A model generated the notes under the pieces. That model saw nothing but the letters and a program-made list of their open reading frames with translations, had not been told where the DNA came from and did no database searches. A stretch of 18,904 nucleotides of DNA from Planctomycetota bacterium (GTDB taxonomy: Bacteria; Planctomycetota; UBA1135; GCA-002686595): positions 1-18,904 of the forward strand of contig JAQBVH010000004.1 in NCBI GenBank assembly GCA_027623615.1. Direction: 5' to 3'. The translations under genes were made by a program, and so were the position numbers. Shown here one piece after another: positions 4,625 through 16,791 of this stretch (within the stretch, counting starts at the first letter, position 1; each line of letters opens with the position of its first letter).

Positions 4625-6271
4625 CTAGAAGTCCTCTTCCGGCGCCCGCACTCGCTTGTCCTGCTCCACGATCTGGCGCAGGACCTTCTTGGTCAGCGGG
4701 TCGGTCTTGGCGTCGGGCCAGCCCTGCCAGCGCACGATGCCCTGGCTGTCGACGACCAGCACGTGGGGGATGCCATCTACGCCCAACTGGCCCTTCATGA
4801 TCGCGGAGGGGTCGATGGCTATCGGGTAGTCGACCTGCACCTTCTCGAGGAAGGCCTTCACGGTCGCCGCGTCCTCGTCGCTGACTCCGATGATCGCGAC
4901 CTCGTCGCCGAACTCGGCCGTCCACTGGTTCATCTCGGGGATGAGCTTGCGGCAGGGTTCACACCAGGTGGCCCAGAAGTCGATCACGACCACCTTGCCC
5001 TGTCGGTCCGGCTCCTTGGTGATCCATTCACCGATCACGAAGTCGGGCGCCTGCTTGCCGCGGTAGTCGTGCTTGGCGTAGAGCTTCTTTTGCGGCGTCT
5101 CCGGCCAGCCGCTGTCGACGAAGTCACGCGAGCCCTGCGCGGTCACGTTCGTCTCGGCGCCGCGCTGCTTGCGGTCCGCGTTGATCACCTGGGCGACCAG
5201 TTCGGTGGTCAAGGCGTCCGGTTGGGCCGCGGGAACTCCCTGCCAGCGCACGATGCCCGTCGAGTCCATCAGGATCACGTGGGGAATCGCCGTCACGTTC
5301 AAGGAGGACTTGAGTCTGCCGCCCTGGTCGAGGGCCTGGGCGTAGGTGAACGACCTCGCGGCGAGGAAGTCTGCGACCTTGCTCCCCCAGGGCTGTCCCT
5401 GGGCGTCGCGGCTCTCGGGGTGTTGGCTGCTGACGCCTATGACGACCAGGTCCTCTCCGAAGCGCTCGTGCCACTCCTGAAGGTCGGGCATCCCGCGCAC
5501 GCAGGGCCCACACCAGGTCGCCCACAGGTCGATCAGCACGCACTTGCCCGCGAGGTCCGGCTCCTCGGTCAACCAGGTCAGCCCCGCGAGGGTCGGGCCC
5601 TGCTCGCCGCGCACGTCCTTGCCGTTCAGGCGCTTGTCCGGCATCGCCGGCCAGCGGGTGGAGACGACCTGCTCCTCCTCGGCCTTCTCCACGTAGGCGA
5701 TCAGCTTGCGCTGTCCTTCCCAGGGCTCGGCCAGGACGGCCCCGATGGCCTGGTCCATGTAGAGGTTGCCCTCCTTGTCAGCATTCTTGTTCAGCCCCGC
5801 CATGCGGACCTTCCCGTCCCGGTCGATCAGGAAGTAGGTCGGCCAGAACTTCATGGTCAGGGCCTGCTCCAGCGTGCCGGCCTTGTCGGCGGCGACCACG
5901 TACGGCAGGTTCTCCTTCCCGATCAGGTCGGCGTGGTTCTGGGCGCCGCGCTTGGAGTGCACGCCGAGCACGACGAAGCCTTGCTCCGCGTACTTCTCGT
6001 GCAGCTCGACCAGGTAGCCGAGCTCGCGCGTGCCCGCCCAGCTGCCCCACAGGTGCAGCAGGACCACGTTGCCTTGGAAGTCGGTCCAGTCGAGGGCCGC
6101 GGTGTTCTCCCACGAGCCGAGGCCGGCGAGGGACGGGGCGGCCTGGCCCTCGAGGGCGTTCCACGCGTCGACGGGGCACTTGGCGCGCCGGTCACGCCAC
6201 TCGGGCGGATCGTCGAGGCAGAAGGCGGTCGAGGGAGCGGCGACGAGAAGGGCGAGGAGGGGAAGTCTCAT
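4625..6271 (-). CDS. Secreted TlpA-like protein with three thioredoxin domains, first one degenerate
   Basis: 548 residues from the ATG at 6271, chosen because a signal peptide (1-17, MRLPLLALLVAAPSTA) begins there; the longer frame upstream adds an implausible basic stretch. Three TlpA/ResA-type thioredoxin folds follow. Domain 1 (about 45-185) has WAGT at 78-81 where WCxxC should be, so it lacks the redox cysteines but keeps a cis-Pro region (WPTYFLID, 143-150). Domain 2 (about 225-365) has WCGPC at 253-257 and a cis-Pro at 330. Domain 3 (about 405-540) has WCEPC at 436-440 and a cis-Pro at 502. It probably acts as a thiol-disulfide oxidoreductase in the periplasm or at the cell surface. 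No cytochrome c maturation or DsbD gene is nearby. No SD is evident; a TAAGAT hexamer at 6301-6306 (minus strand) could be a -10 element. Confidence 0.92.
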   Translation of the reverse strand: MRLPLLALLVAAPSTAFCLDDPPEWRDRRAKCPVDAWNALEGQAAPSLAGLGSWENTAALDWTDFQGNVVLLHLWGSWAGTRELGYLVELHEKYAEQGFVVLGVHSKRGAQNHADLIGKENLPYVVAADKAGTLEQALTMKFWPTYFLIDRDGKVRMAGLNKNADKEGNLYMDQAIGAVLAEPWEGQRKLIAYVEKAEEEQVVSTRWPAMPDKRLNGKDVRGEQGPTLAGLTWLTEEPDLAGKCVLIDLWATWCGPCVRGMPDLQEWHERFGEDLVVIGVSSQHPESRDAQGQPWGSKVADFLAARSFTYAQALDQGGRLKSSLNVTAIPHVILMDSTGIVRWQGVPAAQPDALTTELVAQVINADRKQRGAETNVTAQGSRDFVDSGWPETPQKKLYAKHDYRGKQAPDFVIGEWITKEPDRQGKVVVIDFWATWCEPCRKLIPEMNQWTAEFGDEVAIIGVSDEDAATVKAFLEKVQVDYPIAIDPSAIMKGQLGVDGIPHVLVVDSQGIVRWQGWPDAKTDPLTKKVLRQIVEQDKRVRAPEEDF

Positions 6272-6476
6272 GGCAATCGTTCGAGTCGGTCCAGGGCTCC
6301 ATCTTAGAGTGCCCGGCCGCGGTGCGGGTGCGAAGCGTGTAGTGGCGCAGGCCCGCCCCGAAACGGTTCCATCGGACCGGGATTTGGTGAGACTCCACAC
6401 CGGGGCCGCCTCCTGCCAGTTTCGCCCAATTTCGTTCCGGGTCAGGGGCCCTGATCACGCGGTACAGGGTGTTTGC

Positions 6477-10715: not shown

Positions 10716-11960
10716 ATGACACTACTCCTCGCCCCCCTCGCGCTCGCGGCCATGCTGGCCCCGCCCGTTCTCCAGGACGAATCGACGTCCGCGCCGGACT
10801 GGGCACAGTGGCGTGGACCGACGCGCGACGGGTCCTGCACGGGCCCTGCCTGGCCGGCCGAGCTGAAAGAGGACTCGTTGGAGCGCCTGTGGCGCGTGGA
10901 GATGGGCCCGAGTTATGCGAGCCCGATCGTCGCTGGCGACCGGGTCTTCACCGTGGAGACCAGCGGCGAGCAGGATGAGGTCGTGCGCGCCTTGGATCGC
11001 GGCACCGGAGAGCAGCTGTGGGAGACGACCTGGAAGGGGTCCATGAAGGTGCCCTTCTTCGCGAAACGCAACGGCTCCTGGGTCCGTTCGACCCCCGCCT
11101 ACGACGGCGAGTACCTCTACGTCGGCGGCATACGCGACCGCCTGGTCTGTCTGGCGGGCGCGACCGGCAAGGTGCGCTGGGACGTCGACTTCCTCGAGCG
11201 CGACGGGAAGGGCCTGCCCGACTTCGGGATGGTCTGCTCACCGCTGATCGATGGGGAGCACCTGTACATCCAGGCCGGAGGCGCACTGGCCAAGCTGGAC
11301 AAGACGACCGGCGAGACGATCTGGCGCGGTCTCGAGGACAGCGGAGGGATGGACAGCCCCTTCTCCTCGCCCGTGATCGCGGAGCTACACGGCACTCGAC
11401 AGCTGCTCATCTCGACCCGTGAGTCCCTGTGTGGGGTCGACCTCGAGACTGGCGGACTCCTCTGGGAGGCCCCGATCAAGACCTTCCGCGGGATGAACAT
11501 CCTGACTCCCACTGCGGTGGGCGACGCGGTGTTCACGTCGGCCTACGGGGGTCGTAGCCAGCTGCTCGAGCCCGAGAAGGGTGAGGAGGGGTGGAGCGTC
11601 AGCCAGTCCTGGGAGTCGCGGCCGCGCGGCTACATGACCTCCCCGGTCGTGATCGACGGGTACGCCTACCTCTATCTGCAGTCGAACCGCTTCTCCTGCG
11701 TGCGGCTGTCCGACGGGGAGGTGGGCTGGATCTCCGAGCCGATGGGGGACGAGTACTGGTCGCTGGTCAGCCAGGGGGACCGGATCCTGGCACTGACCCA
11801 CTCCGGTGAGCTGCTCCTGATCCAGGCCGATCCCAGCGAGTACCGCGAGCTCGGGCGGGTGACCGTCGCCGAGCAGGAGACCTGGGCCCACCTGGGTGTG
11901 AGCGGGGACGAGCTTTTCGTCCGCGAACTCGAAGCGATGACCGTTTACCGCTGGAGATAG
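10716..11960 (+). CDS. Secreted PQQ-like beta-propeller protein
   Basis: 414 residues from the ATG at 10716, chosen because it opens a signal peptide (MTLLLAPLALAAMLAPPVL) after a 93-bp gap to glgA; the longer frame runs antisense into glgA. Residues 28-39 read DWAQWRGPTRDG, a typical opening of planctomycete PQQ-repeat proteins. Propeller blades show the A-x-D-x-x-T-G-x-x-x-W tryptophan motif, for example ALDRGTGEQLW, CLAGATGKVRW, KLDKTTGETIW and GVDLETGGLLW. No PQQ-dependent dehydrogenase active site is evident, so it is more likely a BamB-like scaffold or binding protein than an enzyme. Its stop is only 4 nt before the start of a B12-binding radical SAM gene, so it probably heads that operon. 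It could also be an unrelated upstream gene sharing the transcript. Confidence 0.9.
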   Translation: MTLLLAPLALAAMLAPPVLQDESTSAPDWAQWRGPTRDGSCTGPAWPAELKEDSLERLWRVEMGPSYASPIVAGDRVFTVETSGEQDEVVRALDRGTGEQLWETTWKGSMKVPFFAKRNGSWVRSTPAYDGEYLYVGGIRDRLVCLAGATGKVRWDVDFLERDGKGLPDFGMVCSPLIDGEHLYIQAGGALAKLDKTTGETIWRGLEDSGGMDSPFSSPVIAELHGTRQLLISTRESLCGVDLETGGLLWEAPIKTFRGMNILTPTAVGDAVFTSAYGGRSQLLEPEKGEEGWSVSQSWESRPRGYMTSPVVIDGYAYLYLQSNRFSCVRLSDGEVGWISEPMGDEYWSLVSQGDRILALTHSGELLLIQADPSEYRELGRVTVAEQETWAHLGVSGDELFVRELEAMTVYRWR

Positions 11961-11964
11961 ACCT

Positions 11965-13455
11965 GTGCGCATCCTTCTGGTTCAACCGGCCCCCTTCGAG
12001 GGCGGCCGCATCGGTCTCGAGAACGTCCTCTGGCTCAGCGAGCCGGCAGCGCTGACCGCCGTCGCCGCGATGATCGGGGACGAACACGAGGTGCGAATCC
12101 TCGACATGCGCCTGGAGGAGGCGGACCAGCTCCCGCGCGTGCTGGCGACCTTCCGCCCGGAACTGGTCGGGGTGACCTGCATGACGACGGACGCCTATCA
12201 GGCCCAGGCGATCCTGCATTGCGCCAGGTCGACACTGGGCGGCGGGGTCTTCACGGTCCTGGGTGGGCACCACCCGACCCTCTGTCCCGAGGAACACGAC
12301 TTGCCCGAGATCGACGCGATCGTGCTGGGCGAGGGCGAGGACACCTTCCGAGAGCTCGTGCTGCACCTGAGCGAGGGCGGCGACCGCGAGCGGCTCGACC
12401 ACATCGATGGGCTCGCCTTTCGACGCGGGCAGGAGCGCGTGACCACCGCGAAGCGCTCCCAGGCCCGGCAGCTGGACGAATTCCCGGCGCCAGCGCGGCA
12501 CCTGCTCGGGGACTACCGCAGTGAGTACTTCTTCGCCTCTGCGGCTGGCATGGTCTCGATCCAGACCAGCCGCGGCTGCGCGTTCGACTGTAACTTCTGC
12601 GCGATCTGGGAGTTCTACGAGCGCAAGGTGCGCTTTCTCTCCGCGAAGGGCATCGCCGATCGGATGGAGGAGAGCGAGGAGAAGTTCGTCTTCTTCCTCG
12701 ACGACAACTTCCTGACGCGGCCCCAGCGCCTGGTCGAGCTCTGCGACGAGATCGAGCGACGCAAGATCAAGAAGTACTGGCTGATCCAGGGCCGCACGGA
12801 CTTCGTGGTCGAGAACCCTGAGCTCGTCCGACGCATGCGCGACTGCGGCCTGATGATGGTCCTCTCGGGCTACGAGACCAACGACGAGGGCACCCTCGAC
12901 GCCCTGCGCAAGGACAACACCCGCGCGAACAACCTGGCCGCGGCGGCCATGCTCAACGACCTGTCGATCATGACCACCGGGATCTTCATGGCGCATCCCG
13001 ACTTCGAGCCTGAGGACTTCGACGCCCTCTACGCCGCGATCAACGAGATGAAGATCACGATCCCCCTGGTCGTGATCCACATGCCCCTGCCGGGCACGCA
13101 GAGCTATCGCGAGAACCGGGATCAGCTGCTGACCGAGGATGCGCGCATGTTCGACCTACTCCACGCGGTCACGCCCACCCGTCTGCCGCGGGCCGAGTTC
13201 TATCAGCACTACGCCCGCTGGAACGACGCGACCATGTCTGCCACCGACCGCTCCCTGAGCTGGCGCTTCCTGGCGCGCCGTCCGCGCATGATCCTCGCCT
13301 TGAGGCGCGGCCTGAAGACCTTCGCGAAGCGGCGCGATATCCTGCGTGCGACCCTTCGCGATCCTGAGACCTACCTGCGGGACGAGGAGCAGATCCTCCA
13401 TGACCGGCCCCTGAGCCGTTCCTCCTCCCGGCAGACGGACCTGGTGGCCTCATGA
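11965..13455 (+). CDS. B12-binding radical SAM protein, HpnR-like
   Basis: 496 residues from a GTG at 11965, with GGAG (11953-11956) inside the end of the gene before. Residues 1-140 form a cobalamin-binding Rossmann domain (MRILLVQPAP start; VLGGHHPTLCPEE at 98-110; LGEGEDTF at 121-128). The radical SAM core has C205-x3-C209-x2-C212 (CAFDCNFC) followed by AIWEFYERK, then FFLDDNFL at 243-250 and PLPGT at 374-378. The C-terminal region contains TPTRLPRAEFYQHY at 403-416, which together with the WEFY after the cluster resembles the hopanoid C-3 methylase HpnR as I remember it. The family transfers methyl groups to unactivated carbons through methylcobalamin, but the substrate here is unknown and no hopanoid gene is nearby. 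It is cytoplasmic or membrane-associated, with a basic tail. It overlaps the next gene by 4 bp (ATGA). Confidence 0.92.
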   Translation: MRILLVQPAPFEGGRIGLENVLWLSEPAALTAVAAMIGDEHEVRILDMRLEEADQLPRVLATFRPELVGVTCMTTDAYQAQAILHCARSTLGGGVFTVLGGHHPTLCPEEHDLPEIDAIVLGEGEDTFRELVLHLSEGGDRERLDHIDGLAFRRGQERVTTAKRSQARQLDEFPAPARHLLGDYRSEYFFASAAGMVSIQTSRGCAFDCNFCAIWEFYERKVRFLSAKGIADRMEESEEKFVFFLDDNFLTRPQRLVELCDEIERRKIKKYWLIQGRTDFVVENPELVRRMRDCGLMMVLSGYETNDEGTLDALRKDNTRANNLAAAAMLNDLSIMTTGIFMAHPDFEPEDFDALYAAINEMKITIPLVVIHMPLPGTQSYRENRDQLLTEDARMFDLLHAVTPTRLPRAEFYQHYARWNDATMSATDRSLSWRFLARRPRMILALRRGLKTFAKRRDILRATLRDPETYLRDEEQILHDRPLSRSSSRQTDLVAS

Positions 13456-14345
13456 TCGTGTCCAACACGGCTCCGGGTTTCACCGAGGGCCTGTCCCCCT
13501 GGCTGTCCGATCTCCGCGCGGAGGTGGAGTCCCACCCGGGAGTCAACCACTTGCTCCTGTCGCGCCTGGCCACCGGTCGCTACACCAAGAGCGACTACCA
13601 GGTCTTTGGTCTGCAGCACTATCCGATGGTGGGGAACTTCACCCGCTACATGGAGCTCCTGCTCCTGCGGGCACCTTCCTCGGAGCAGAAGCTCTGGCTG
13701 GCCAAGGTCCTGGTGGACGAATACGGCGAGGGATCGGACGGGGATGACCACGCCACGCTCTACCTCGACTACCTGCACAAGCTCGGCATGCCCGAGGGAC
13801 TCGAGCACACGACCGCACTCGTGCCCGAGGTCTGGGAGTTCATCGGCGTGCACCTGCGTCTGTGCCGCGAGGAGCCATTCCTGGTCGGTCTCGGCGCGCT
13901 CGGTCCGGGGCACGAGTGGGCCATCCCGAAGATGTTCCACCAGATCATCCCGGGGCTCGAGCGAGCTGGGGTCTCCTACGACGACCGCATGTACTTCGAC
14001 CTGCACACCGAGCAGGACATCGAGCATGCCAGCTGGATGGCGCAGGCCCTCGAGCAGCTCGGTACCAACGAGGAGGCGCGCGCGCAGGTGCGCCGCGGCG
14101 CACTCCTGTCCCTCGGCACGCGCTTCCGGTTCTGGACCGGCGTCGAGCGTCACATCGTGGCCCGCCGTCAGCCGACCTCGATCGAGGCGGTAAGGCGTGG
14201 GCTGATCGGTCGTCGGCGGCCCGAGAACATCCGCAGCGGCGGTGACCTCGGCCAGCTGCGCGCGGCCGTCGAGAACACTCTGGTGGGTCGCCCTTGGCCG
14301 GTCCCGCTGCCCTCCGACAAGGTCCTGCTCGAGGTTGCCCCGTGA
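13452..14345 (+). CDS. Heme-oxygenase-like diiron oxidase (HDO family)
   Basis: 297 residues, all-helical. The putative iron ligands are Glu90, His100, Glu155, His185, Asp189 and His192. The last three form H-x3-D-x2-H (HTEQDIEH, 185-192), the hallmark of heme-oxygenase-like diiron oxidases such as SznF, UndA, BesC and CADD. The spacings Glu90 to His100 (10) and Glu155 to His185 (30) match those I recall for the SznF HDO domain. These enzymes use O2 for N-oxygenation, C-C cleavage or desaturation. The shared fold (TenA, PqqC) makes a non-iron role possible, but the complete ligand set argues against it. The gene starts on the stop of one radical SAM gene (ATGA) and ends on the start of another (GTGA), so all three should act together. 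The tail (about 235-297) looks disordered and basic. The product is unknown. Confidence 0.86.
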   Translation: MIVSNTAPGFTEGLSPWLSDLRAEVESHPGVNHLLLSRLATGRYTKSDYQVFGLQHYPMVGNFTRYMELLLLRAPSSEQKLWLAKVLVDEYGEGSDGDDHATLYLDYLHKLGMPEGLEHTTALVPEVWEFIGVHLRLCREEPFLVGLGALGPGHEWAIPKMFHQIIPGLERAGVSYDDRMYFDLHTEQDIEHASWMAQALEQLGTNEEARAQVRRGALLSLGTRFRFWTGVERHIVARRQPTSIEAVRRGLIGRRRPENIRSGGDLGQLRAAVENTLVGRPWPVPLPSDKVLLEVAP

Positions 14346-15931
14346 AGATCCTCTTCGTCGCCAACAAGAAGAACGCCGATCCGACCGAGCGCGAGCTCTA
14401 CGAGATGGACCTGATGAACGAGGTCCTGGGGTTCGACCGCTCCCTGCTCGACCTGGGGCTGCTGACCGTCCTGGGCGCGACCCCCGAGCACATCGAGACC
14501 TCGCTCCAGGACGAGTACCTGGGCCCGATCGACTACGACGAAGCTTGCGACCTGGTCGCGATCTCGGCCAAGACCTCGTGTTCCCCCGCGGCCTACCGCG
14601 TGGCCGATGAGTTCCGGCGGCGGGGCAAGAAGGTCGTGCTGGGCGGCATCCACGCCTCCCTGCGGCCCGAGGAAGCGCTCGAGCACGTCGACTACATCGT
14701 GACCGGCGAGGCCGAGACCGTCTGGCTGGAGTTCCTGCGCGACTTCGAGGCTGGCTGCCCCAAGCAGCGCTACGACGCCCAGGGCTTCCCGGACATGGCC
14801 AACGTGCCGCACCCCAGCTACGCCAACACGGACCCCAAGCGGTTCCTGTTTCATCAGATCCAGACCACTCGCGGCTGCCCGTACATGTGCCGCTTCTGCT
14901 CGGTGCCGGACATCTCGGGTCGGGCGTTCCGCTTCAAGCCGGTCGAGAACGTGATCGACGAGATCCTCTCGATGCCGCGCCGCGGTGCGATGACCGAGCG
15001 CCTCAAGGCGCTCTACATGGTCGACGACAACTTCATCAGCCGCACGCGCTACACCAAGGAGCTGCTCGAGGCCCTGGTCCCCCTGCGGGAGCAGGGGCGC
15101 ATCCCCGACTGGTCCGCGGAGACGACCTTGAACGTGGCCAAGGACGAGGACCTGCTCGACCTGTTCCAGGCCGCGGGCTGCACGACCCTGATCATCGGGT
15201 TCGAGTCGGTGTCCCAGGAGACCCTGAAGTCGATGGACAAGGGCATCAACTTCTGCGTCTCCTACGACGAGGCCATCGAGAACATCCACAAGCGCGGCAT
15301 CTCGATCGTCGGCAACTTCATCGTGGGCTTCGACACGGACCACCTGAGCGTGTTCCGCGACACCCGCGACTTCATCCTCGAGAACAACATCCTCTACCCC
15401 TTCTTCAGCATCCTGGCTCCGATGCCTGGCACCGAGCTGCACGAGGAGTTCAAGCGCGAGGAGCGCCTCGATCACTTCGACTGGTCACGCTACGACACGC
15501 GCCACGTGCTCTACGAGCCCAAGCACATGAGCCGCGAGCAGCTCATGGACGGGTACGTCTGGCTCTACGAGCAGTGCTACCTGTCCGACAAGGGGCTCGA
15601 CAACCTGGCGCGCTTCTGGCGCAGGCCCGAGCGGGCGGGTTCGAACTTCGCCGAGCGCGCCTTCATCCGCTGGCGCCTGGCACGGAGCAAGAAGCTGACC
15701 GATCAGGGGCGTGACTTCACCCGGCGGGCGCTGGCCCTGCGCAAGGACACGGGCAAGGTCGACATGGCCCAACTGCTGTACTACCTCGACTCCGGGCACT
15801 TCGCCGAGTTCCTCTCGCGCTACAAGTCCGAGGACTACGACCTCCACGGCGCCCAGTTCGAGGCGGGTGAGGTCGCGAGCGTGAAGCAATGGGACGACGC
15901 CCGCGTGCGCCGCTCGGCTGCCGTCGTCTGA
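14342..15931 (+). CDS. B12-binding radical SAM protein, HpnP/DUF4070-like
   Basis: 529 residues from a GTG at 14342 that overlaps the previous stop by 4 bp; GAGG lies 7 nt before it. An ATG-free longer frame upstream would run deep inside the HDO gene and is rejected. The cobalamin-binding domain covers 1-165 with VVLGGIHASLRPEE at 98-111 and VTGEAETVW at 120-128. The radical SAM core starts with TTRGC179-x3-C183-x2-C186, followed by YMVDDNFISR, IIGFES, and GNFIVGFDTD. After PMPGTELHEEFKREERL comes HVLYEPKHMSREQL, a layout like the DUF4070 region of hopanoid C-2 methylase HpnP. A helical C-terminal extension of about 90 residues follows. The enzyme likely performs a methylation or another radical step on the same product as its neighbours. 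Hopanoid C-2 methylation itself is not supported by context. Confidence 0.92.
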   Translation: MKILFVANKKNADPTERELYEMDLMNEVLGFDRSLLDLGLLTVLGATPEHIETSLQDEYLGPIDYDEACDLVAISAKTSCSPAAYRVADEFRRRGKKVVLGGIHASLRPEEALEHVDYIVTGEAETVWLEFLRDFEAGCPKQRYDAQGFPDMANVPHPSYANTDPKRFLFHQIQTTRGCPYMCRFCSVPDISGRAFRFKPVENVIDEILSMPRRGAMTERLKALYMVDDNFISRTRYTKELLEALVPLREQGRIPDWSAETTLNVAKDEDLLDLFQAAGCTTLIIGFESVSQETLKSMDKGINFCVSYDEAIENIHKRGISIVGNFIVGFDTDHLSVFRDTRDFILENNILYPFFSILAPMPGTELHEEFKREERLDHFDWSRYDTRHVLYEPKHMSREQLMDGYVWLYEQCYLSDKGLDNLARFWRRPERAGSNFAERAFIRWRLARSKKLTDQGRDFTRRALALRKDTGKVDMAQLLYYLDSGHFAEFLSRYKSEDYDLHGAQFEAGEVASVKQWDDARVRRSAAVV

Positions 15932-15972: not shown

Positions 15973-16791
15973 TCAACCCGGGTGGGCGGGGGAGGCGGTG
16001 GACCCGTCCGCGAACGGGTCCTCGGGATCCAGCCAGCGGGCGTGCCCGTCCTCGACGACGAGCAACTCCTCCCACTTCATCCCGATGCGCCCGCGGGCCA
16101 GGTGGGGCTCGACCGACCAGAGCCCGTCGCCCGGAGGCTGGTCCGCGCGTGGCGAATCGCTCCAGAAGGGCCAGCCGACCTTGCCAGGGGCGAGTCGATG
16201 CAGCGCGGCCCCGCCGAACAGGCGTAGCCCGCTCCCGAACCCGAGGCCAACCATGGACCAGCGCAGAGGGAGCCACGAACGATACACCCGGTGCCCGAGG
16301 GCGCCCATTAGGTAGCGCTGCTGGCAGCTCTCCCAGCCAACGGCCGCGCCGTGCTGCGCGACACGTAGGCACAGTTCCCGCGACGTGTGACCAGGACCGA
16401 TCCAGGTTGGGAGCAGGGCACGCAGCTCGGCGAGCACCTGGCGCCCCTCCTCCAAGCCGGTCCCCGCCGTCCAGCTCACGTCCGCCACACCGTCGCGGAA
16501 GACGGGGGCGACATCGAGCACGGCGGAGTCATCCACACCGAGCCGCGTCCCTCCGGGGAGGGCGTCGCCGCGACGTCGGAAGGACGCCATCGTGGACCGC
16601 TCCCCGAACCACACGATGGGCTCGTGGAAGAAGGCCACGGCGCCCGCGGCGCGCATCCCGTCCCGGAGACGACGTGCGGTCTCCCGTTCCGTGTCCCCGG
16701 GCCGCAACGCGGCGCTCGCATCGAGCAGCACCCGCCGGGCGCGGCGCTGGGCCGCGAGGCGGCCTTCGAGGATGGTCGGGGTCAGACGCAC
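15973..16791 (-). CDS. M24-type metallopeptidase-like protein (pita-bread fold), short
   Basis: 272 residues from a GTG at 16791, overlapping the SRPBCC gene by 10 bp. All five dinuclear metal ligands of M24 enzymes are present: Asp93 and Asp104 (D-x10-D), His167 (GALGHRVY), Glu228 (WSVEPH) and Glu241 or Glu242 (MKWEEL). The length is that of a bare methionine-aminopeptidase-like catalytic domain without the N-terminal domain of prolidases. It lacks the Gly-rich strands of MetAP around the ligands (the first Asp is in LDVAPVF, not DxG), so it is a divergent member, perhaps acting on a proline dipeptide or a non-peptide such as creatine. It is last in a three-gene run with a lipoprotein and an SRPBCC protein. 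The family is fairly sure; the substrate is unknown. Confidence 0.85.
   Translation of the reverse strand: MRLTPTILEGRLAAQRRARRVLLDASAALRPGDTERETARRLRDGMRAAGAVAFFHEPIVWFGERSTMASFRRRGDALPGGTRLGVDDSAVLDVAPVFRDGVADVSWTAGTGLEEGRQVLAELRALLPTWIGPGHTSRELCLRVAQHGAAVGWESCQQRYLMGALGHRVYRSWLPLRWSMVGLGFGSGLRLFGGAALHRLAPGKVGWPFWSDSPRADQPPGDGLWSVEPHLARGRIGMKWEELLVVEDGHARWLDPEDPFADGSTASPAHPG

Follow-up and report, generated by a model that had tools for sequence, protein, structure and literature searches.

Haem-oxygenase-like diiron oxidases (HDOs) and cobalamin (B12)-binding radical S-adenosylmethionine (SAM) enzymes are both known kinds of enzymes. The HDO superfamily includes CADD/NePabS, BesC, UndA, HrmI, and FlcD and is characterized in the accessible part of PMC13108848 by a ligand motif of three histidines and three carboxylates. 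UndA, named there as the first HDO with an assigned function, uses Fe and O2 to turn a fatty acid into a terminal alkene; for CADD, a sacrificed Tyr27 and an amine-donating Lys152 are given in the accessible part of PMC11965152. Here, we have analyzed a stretch of 18,904 nucleotides from a Planctomycetota bacterium (GenBank assembly GCA_027623615.1, contig JAQBVH010000004.1), in the following called the window, in which an HDO gene is located between two genes encoding the cobalamin-binding radical SAM proteins rSAM1 and rSAM2. The three genes form one conserved unit; its core is the pair of rSAM1 and HDO, with rSAM2 as an accessory member. This cassette probably serves as a module dedicated to tailoring a single small molecule. 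It comprises the following features:

11965..13455, + strand: rSAM1, cobalamin-binding radical SAM protein, 496 aa, GTG start; core partner of HDO
13452..14345, + strand: HDO, haem-oxygenase-like diiron oxidase, 297 aa, ATG start
14342..15931, + strand: rSAM2, second cobalamin-binding radical SAM protein, 529 aa, GTG start; optional partner
13452..13455, + strand: ATGA start/stop overlap of rSAM1 and HDO, by which translation may be coupled
14342..14345, + strand: GTGA start/stop overlap of HDO and rSAM2

The original prediction, made from this DNA, had described three genes overlapping at ATGA and GTGA, an HDO with all six diiron ligands, and two B12 radical SAM proteins of different subtypes. 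All three statements were confirmed. The reading frames contain no internal stops, both junctions are located as listed, and third-position GC contents of 0.88-0.95 across the three frames are consistent with coding; the ligands and subtypes are described below.

Comparison of the encoded proteins with described enzymes

The HDO protein matched the Pfam family Haem_oxygenas_2 with 96.7 bits, which is above the curated cut-off. E90, H100, E155, H185, D189, and H192 were identified as putative diiron ligands by aligning the protein with CADD and further structurally solved HDOs; they correspond to the three histidines and three carboxylates on three core helices expected for the superfamily. The ligand spacing also matches the FlcD residues given in the accessible part of PMC11363339. 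All six ligands are retained in 82 of the 83 HDO sequences compared in this study; the sole exception is a fusion protein of Paraliomyxa miuraensis (L084), in which H185, D189, and H192 are lost. An AlphaFold model (pLDDT 89.3) predicts the haem-oxygenase-like fold, and a Foldseek search with this model returned CADD as the best solved structure (1rcw, E 2e-7), besides HrmI, BesC, and UndA.

The window HDO thus appears to share fold and ligand set with the superfamily, and its likeness to UndA is one of predicted fold. Membership in the CADD or BesC families was rejected since scores were well below the cut-offs (53.9 bits vs 200 for the CADD model TIGR04305 and 36.1 bits vs 500 for the BesC model NF042919). 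A p-aminobenzoate (pABA) synthase of the CADD/NePabS type was rejected as well: the positions of Tyr27 and Lys152 are occupied by L36 and I165, and Tyr or Lys was found in these columns in none of the 83 sequences (L36 and I165 were counted by hand). The window HDO family carries a GPGHEW motif, which is invariant across 26 aligned relatives and differs from known HDOs. Unlike known HDOs, the window-type HDO adjoins B12 radical SAM genes, and a related clade adjoins ferrochelatase genes.

Both radical SAM proteins show the expected cobalamin radical SAM architecture in their sequences, i.e. a B12-binding domain, a radical SAM domain, and a CxxxCxxC motif, located at residue 205 in rSAM1 and at residue 179 in rSAM2. 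The respective Pfam scores, all above the curated cut-offs, were 73.5 (B12-binding) and 51.4 bits (Radical_SAM) for rSAM1, and 38.4 and 63.8 bits for rSAM2. The two proteins share about 25% identity and differ in their best NCBIfam models, which is HpnR, followed by BchE, for rSAM1 and BchE for rSAM2. The hopanoid C-3 methylase model HpnR (TIGR04367, cut-off 650) scored 212.9 bits with rSAM1, alignable over residues 2-443, and 62.3 bits with rSAM2; the Mg-protoporphyrin ester cyclase model BchE (TIGR02026, cut-off 481) scored 157.6 and 112.7 bits, respectively. As these scores are well below the cut-offs, membership of rSAM1 or rSAM2 in either family was rejected. HpnR shares the cobalamin and radical SAM domains with rSAM1, which differs by the HDO gene adjoining it in every panel genome having rSAM1 (see below). 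BchE has an architecture common to rSAM1 and rSAM2; chlorophyll pathway genes were not noted among the window proteins scanned. The rSAM1 model (pLDDT 76.6) is poor near the cluster loop. Its nearest solved folds are OxsB, CysS, AprD4, MgmA (9ccb), and TokK, which are also nearest by profile; in structural alignments they are 15-19% identical to rSAM1, and they act on other substrates. For the rSAM2 profile, MgmA was best among the solved chains.

Conservation of the cassette

Genome contigs were scanned with an HDO alignment, and exact motif matches were required. The best 80 of the 84 relatives found, together with the window and the relatives L002 and L003, gave the 83 HDO loci compared (L denotes loci and G genomes). 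In addition, phylum samples of 392 Planctomycetota and 377 Myxococcota genomes were searched, with three candidates scored per genome, as was a panel of 66 genomes mostly picked via their HDO loci. Three alignments (A1, A3, and A4) consisted of the query and 25, 15, and 14, respectively, of the 120 homologs listed per search.

All three genes were present at 18 of the 83 loci, 16 of which are distinct (L002/L016 and L003/L018 are identical in HDO). The full set comprises seven distinct Planctomycetota loci and nine in metagenome-assembled genomes (MAGs) labelled Myxococcota, Deltaproteobacteria, or Proteobacteria. Two of these nine (G049, G053) were recovered again in the Myxococcota sample, and the phylum samples yielded two further full sets (G166, G814). 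At 19 loci, i.e. 19 of the 37 having rSAM1, the pair of rSAM1 and HDO occurred without rSAM2 nearby, a few of them at contig ends. HDO and rSAM2 were found together at one contig edge, and the remaining 45 loci carried HDO without either radical SAM gene.

Orthologs of rSAM1 (at least about 50% identity) were found in 28 of the 66 panel genomes, 27 of them distinct (G020 = G045), and were located beside HDO in all 28. The other 38 genomes had no rSAM1 ortholog (G098 contained a 34% homolog only), and G061 encodes two distant homologs (36% and 32%) besides its ortholog. In the Planctomycetota sample, four of 392 genomes, the window included, had rSAM1, each with an adjoining HDO gene. Orthologs of rSAM2 (57% identity or more) were detected in 16 of 59 panel genomes, again all beside HDO, and more distant homologs (33-38%) in six of the genomes. 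Close rSAM2 homologs (E <= 1e-60) were not found in any of the 11 rSAM1-HDO pair genomes searched as a whole. Four of the 377 Myxococcota genomes had rSAM2, three of them beside HDO; in G761, rSAM2 stands alone on a 5.3-kb contig with the rSAM1-HDO pair on another, and this is the sole rSAM2 gene seen without adjoining HDO. In G001 (~86% complete), the only genome of the same genus that was searched, neither HDO nor rSAM2 was detected.

The proteins also diverged together. Pairwise distances of rSAM1 and HDO correlated with r = 0.83 (n = 32), those of the three proteins with 0.85, 0.87, and 0.93 (n = 16), and none of 5000 shuffles reached such values; within phyla, the correlations were 0.85-0.96 (n = 9 and 7), with 0-5 of 2000 shuffles as high. 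Shared species descent can inflate such correlations, which were calculated leaving out L002, L003, L030, L032, and L084. A start codon is available at the 4-bp overlap at 20 of 36 rSAM1-HDO junctions and at 9 of 18 HDO-rSAM2 junctions, near-duplicates included. Furthermore, rSAM1 and HDO are fused into one open reading frame of 822 aa in Paraliomyxa miuraensis (L084, 8321-10786), where the HDO half is the one lacking three of the six ligands.

Since rSAM1 and HDO occurred without nearby rSAM2 at more than half of the rSAM1 loci and rSAM2 was not found in the 11 pair genomes, we regard the pair as the core of the cassette. The original prediction had proposed that the three genes act together, with an O2-dependent step between two radical steps, and that a trio found nowhere else would speak against it. 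The trio proved to be a conserved unit present in two phyla, yet with rSAM1 in as few as four of 392 Planctomycetota genomes; the central O2 step was not supported, since rSAM2 is optional. As a separate observation, one pair (L026) comes from a record titled Klebsiella pneumoniae and groups with pairs of delta/proteobacterial MAGs; this MAG label is probably wrong.

HDO relatives linked to haem biosynthesis

In the HDO tree, 33 sequences, mostly from Planctomycetota, form a supported clade (99/94), and none of them has an adjoining rSAM1 gene. Of the 33 HDO genes, 23 are followed on the same strand, after 0 to 0.8 kb, by a gene for ferrochelatase (HemH), and locus L077 shows the gene order HemE, HDO, HemH, HemY. 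HDO also adjoins haem-biosynthesis genes at L076. Related gene contexts were observed in the more distant, Rokubacteria-type outgroup: L085 carries HemE-HemH-HemY, siroheme genes, and, further down on the same strand, HDO; at L091, siroheme-type genes lie beside HDO on the opposite strand. The clade HDOs are linked by gene context to the coproporphyrin-dependent haem pathway (HemE, HemY, HemH, HemQ), adjoining HemH and, once, HemE and HemY. The window HDO differs in being outside this clade, in having radical SAM partners, and in a genome encoding HemN.

Enzymes of the late haem steps were searched in 57 genomes, comprising 44 with an HDO locus (G000, G041-G083) and 13 of 40 relatives that were picked as controls for absence of an HDO match. 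All 15 clade genomes searched encode HemH, and all 15 encode HemY above the cut-off, one with an in-frame stop. HemF was found in none of these 15; HemN above the cut-off was found neither in the 15 nor in 13 further ones. In 11 of the 15, none of HemN, HemF, and HemQ was found. Among the 13 controls, nine have HemH; two of these nine encode HemF above the cut-off, and five others a HemN-type C-terminal domain at most ~1.3 kb from HemY.

Within the Planctomycetota, HemN or HemF was present in eight of nine genomes from the window's part of the HDO tree (five of six with rSAM1 and three of three without). Any of HemN, HemF, and HemQ was present in two of 13 clade genomes; this contrast (8/9 vs 2/13) gave a Fisher p of 0.0015, and that of the rSAM1 genomes (5/6 vs 2/13) a Fisher p of 0.0095, both tests having been chosen after the data were seen. 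The tables omit G015 and G020 (HemF and HemQ not run; G020 duplicates G045) and G082 (HDO without a position in the tree; HemN present).

Additionally, a column-by-column comparison was made between 38 HDOs from the window's part of the tree (36 of these beside rSAM1) and 32 from the ferrochelatase clade, counting a column as conserved at 90% or more (L019, L034, L037, L045, L074, L080, L084, and six outgroup sequences were omitted). The two groups have 74 conserved columns in common, and the residue is identical in 70 of these, all six ligands among them; four are fixed differently (N32/G, Y49/F, G94/R, and L108/M), none being a ligand. Further conserved columns are specific to one group, 20 to the clade and seven to the window's group.

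The clade HDOs may be candidates for the missing haem step, acting as a coprohaem or coproporphyrin decarboxylase. According to the accessible part of PMC11761711, coprohaem decarboxylase converts two propionates to vinyls; together with the alkene-forming reaction of UndA, this provides a precedent for the proposed chemistry in the clade's own fold.

Proposed function of the cassette

Among the substrates considered for the cassette, a tetrapyrrole is the most likely, at somewhat less than even probability, most obviously a side chain, e.g. a propionate, of porphyrin or haem. This reading is drawn from the HDO relatives without radical SAM partners, which adjoin haem-biosynthesis genes, have nearly the same catalytic core, and may provide a decarboxylation from the coproporphyrin to the protoporphyrin level that is otherwise missing there. 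The 70 identical columns out of 74 argue for, and do not prove, that a related substrate undergoes the same chemistry. The original prediction had favored a diffusible metabolite or a membrane lipid; both are possible, but the strongest context signal of the HDO family is tetrapyrrole biosynthesis.

Beyond the predicted fold, metal-ligand sets, conservation, adjacency, and co-divergence observed here, each chemical step is proposed by analogy within the protein families. Diferrous HDO would bind a carboxylate of the substrate and react with O2 to give a peroxo-diiron species, which would remove hydrogen from a nearby C-H bond, so that the substrate would be oxidatively decarboxylated or desaturated, as by UndA. 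rSAM1, and rSAM2 if present, would generate a 5'-deoxyadenosyl radical from SAM and pass a methyl group from methylcobalamin to an unactivated sp3 carbon of the same molecule, or catalyze a rearrangement; rSAM2 would add a further, optional step. With a tetrapyrrole as substrate, this would yield a haem or porphyrin that is C-methylated or altered in another way.

A wider proposal, tentative and rather doubtful at present, is that the HDO family represents a new tetrapyrrole branch. A diiron O2-dependent decarboxylase of planctomycetes and Rokubacteria-like bacteria would replace HemQ, HemN, and HemF, putatively converting propionate to vinyl by UndA-type chemistry on coprohaem or coproporphyrin, and the window lineage would have added one or two B12 radical SAM methylases to the same catalytic core, resulting in a so far undescribed C-methylated or side-chain-altered haem or porphyrin.

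Several observations weigh against a tetrapyrrole substrate or against the role proposed for the clade. None of the 43 HDO loci from the window's part of the tree, 37 of which have rSAM1, showed HemE, HemH, or HemY in its flanks; the gene location expected of a coproporphyrin-to-protoporphyrin decarboxylase is thus seen at 23 of 33 clade loci and at 0 of 43 window-type loci, and the haem link is one by family and not by the cassette itself. The genome containing the window encodes a HemN, rSAM1 is closer to the lipid methylase HpnR than to BchE, and the tree does not establish the rSAM1-linked HDOs as one clade. The four differing and 27 group-specific columns leave room for another substrate. 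As to the clade, a ferrochelatase gene was not seen at 10 of the 33 loci, one of which ends 18 bp past HDO, and with the queries used, tetrapyrrole genes were found at two of six outgroup loci. HemQ was present in four of the 15 clade genomes. These genomes are mostly MAGs of unstated completeness, so that an enzyme not found may be unassembled, and the clade's HemN homologs below the cut-off are presumed to be HemW. Finally, in a comparison of all genomes, the contrast of 26/28 vs 4/15 obtained when weak HemQ- and HemF-like matches were counted (p = 1.4e-5) vanished with strong matches alone (12/28 vs 4/15, p = 0.34), because the larger count includes 11 Myxococcota genomes with a weak HemQ-like match and three with a weak HemF-like one.

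The point about HpnR leads to an alternative we consider unlikely, yet worth serious attention, namely tailoring of a membrane or isoprenoid lipid. rSAM1 would methylate like HpnR, HDO would decarboxylate or desaturate a fatty-acyl or isoprenoid carboxylate like UndA, and rSAM2 would introduce a further change. HpnR is the best model for rSAM1, several rSAM1 homologs are named 'hopanoid C-3 methylase' by one source, UndA was the first HDO with an assigned function, and at L018 an HMG-CoA reductase gene directly follows rSAM2, which also speaks against a tetrapyrrole. The score of 213 bits falls, however, well short of the 650 required by the HpnR model, families of hopanoid or fatty-acid enzymes did not recur among the 25 families listed, out of 86 matched by 107 neighbour proteins, and the relatives without radical SAM genes adjoin haem genes. 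We also rate as unlikely, slightly more so, that the substrate is a small diffusible metabolite derived from an amino acid or other primary metabolite, with the haem context of the related clade reflecting a different substrate. Characterized HDOs often make such metabolites, the substrates of BesC, HrmI, and CADD being amino acids or a tyrosine; the cassette has no fixed neighbours, and 27 conserved columns are specific to one or the other HDO group. On the other hand, the catalytic core is nearly identical to that of the haem-linked clade, and the residues consumed by CADD are absent from HDO.

It is improbable that the window-type HDO is a second O2-dependent coproporphyrin or coprohaem decarboxylase for ordinary haem, with rSAM1 as a helper. 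This would agree with the many Myxococcota pair and trio genomes in which no strong HemN, HemF, or HemQ match was found and with the related clade being a candidate for the same step, but HemN is encoded by the window genome, HemN or HemF by five of the six panel Planctomycetota with rSAM1, and HemE, HemH, and HemY were not found near window-type loci. Least probable by far are three unrelated genes lying merely side by side. The possible absence of rSAM2 and its location on another contig in G761 would fit this explanation; the same order in two phyla, adjacency, co-divergence, overlapping starts, and the gene fusion strongly disfavor it, and a chance neighbourhood was rejected.

Neighbouring genes

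The cassette is preceded in the window by one further gene in the same orientation:

10716..11960, + strand: BamB-like beta-propeller protein, 414 aa from the ATG at 10716, signal-peptide-like start

The stop codon of this gene is located 4 bp upstream of rSAM1; therefore, the local transcription unit may consist of four genes. A conserved fourth gene was rejected, since other genes are found upstream of the cassette at L013 (esterase-like) and L012 (carbohydrate esterase, opposite strand). A scan for promoters and terminators gave nothing exceeding shuffled sequences. Downstream, an M24 peptidase-like gene (15973-16791, - strand) is convergent with rSAM2 and is also present at L012 and L013. 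Elsewhere in the window, a gene at 4625-6397 (- strand) encodes a protein holding three AhpC-TSA/thioredoxin-like stretches.

The proteins encoded around the cassette were tallied for 107 of 113 neighbours, leaving out L002, L003, L016, L030, and L032. A fixed neighbour set was rejected, as each of the 25 listed families matched at most five proteins; at the top were the metallo-beta-lactamase fold (five), multihaem cytochrome domains (five), and MerR (four). Among these 25 families, no recurring biosynthetic family was found. Among the window proteins scanned, no carrier protein, NRPS, PKS, or terpene cyclase was seen next to the cassette, in agreement with the original prediction. One neighbour matches Mg_chelatase (PF01078), and we take it to be a ComM-type protein.

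At six pair loci, of which three are near-identical, multihaem cytochrome genes are located upstream in the same orientation; at two, they are on the opposite strand. Each of the three cluster members read contains five CXXCH motifs. A multihaem cytochrome beside rSAM1 recurs at L021, L026, L027, L029, L030, L032, L054, and L084. At L040, L046, and L059, a MerR-B12 regulator resembling CarH (119 bits vs a cut-off of 400) and a sigma factor precede the rSAM1-HDO pair, and at L087 a MerR-B12 gene is divergent to HDO. These neighbours suggest control by light or B12. The surroundings of HDO at L087 (6120-13667), where rSAM1 and rSAM2 are missing, also include ThiC, a ChaN-type haem-binding protein, and a B12 radical SAM gene that is KedN5-like but scores below the cut-off of that model. 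A TIGR01777/DUF1731 epimerase gene is found near the cassette at L017, L018, and L031. The MerR-B12 and TIGR01777 genes, which are of a light-response type, the cytochrome and HMG-CoA reductase genes, and the other neighbours are too infrequent to name a pathway.

Relation to published work and significance

In a literature search in which most subscription journals were not covered, no description was found of the rSAM1-HDO pairing, its spread, the haem-linked HDO clade, or any HDO taking part in haem synthesis. Neither the pairing nor the clade is described in the accessible parts of PMC8529089, PMC10740692, PMC10151467, PMC13108848, PMC11363339, and PMC11965152, and the accessible main text of the 2026 HDO review PMC13108848 contains no occurrence of radical SAM, porphyrin, or ferrochelatase. 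Because of this coverage, we regard the novelty of both as provisional.

If the proposed function is correct, an orphan cassette of mostly uncultured planctomycetes and myxobacteria would open a testable path to a novel modified tetrapyrrole or to some other product methylated with the help of B12. The related HDOs would be a concrete candidate for a haem step in genomes where the three known enzymes were not found. An enzyme with the haem-oxygenase fold that builds haem instead of breaking it would, if true, surprise specialists, and laboratory complementation could decide whether such an enzyme has a haem-building role.

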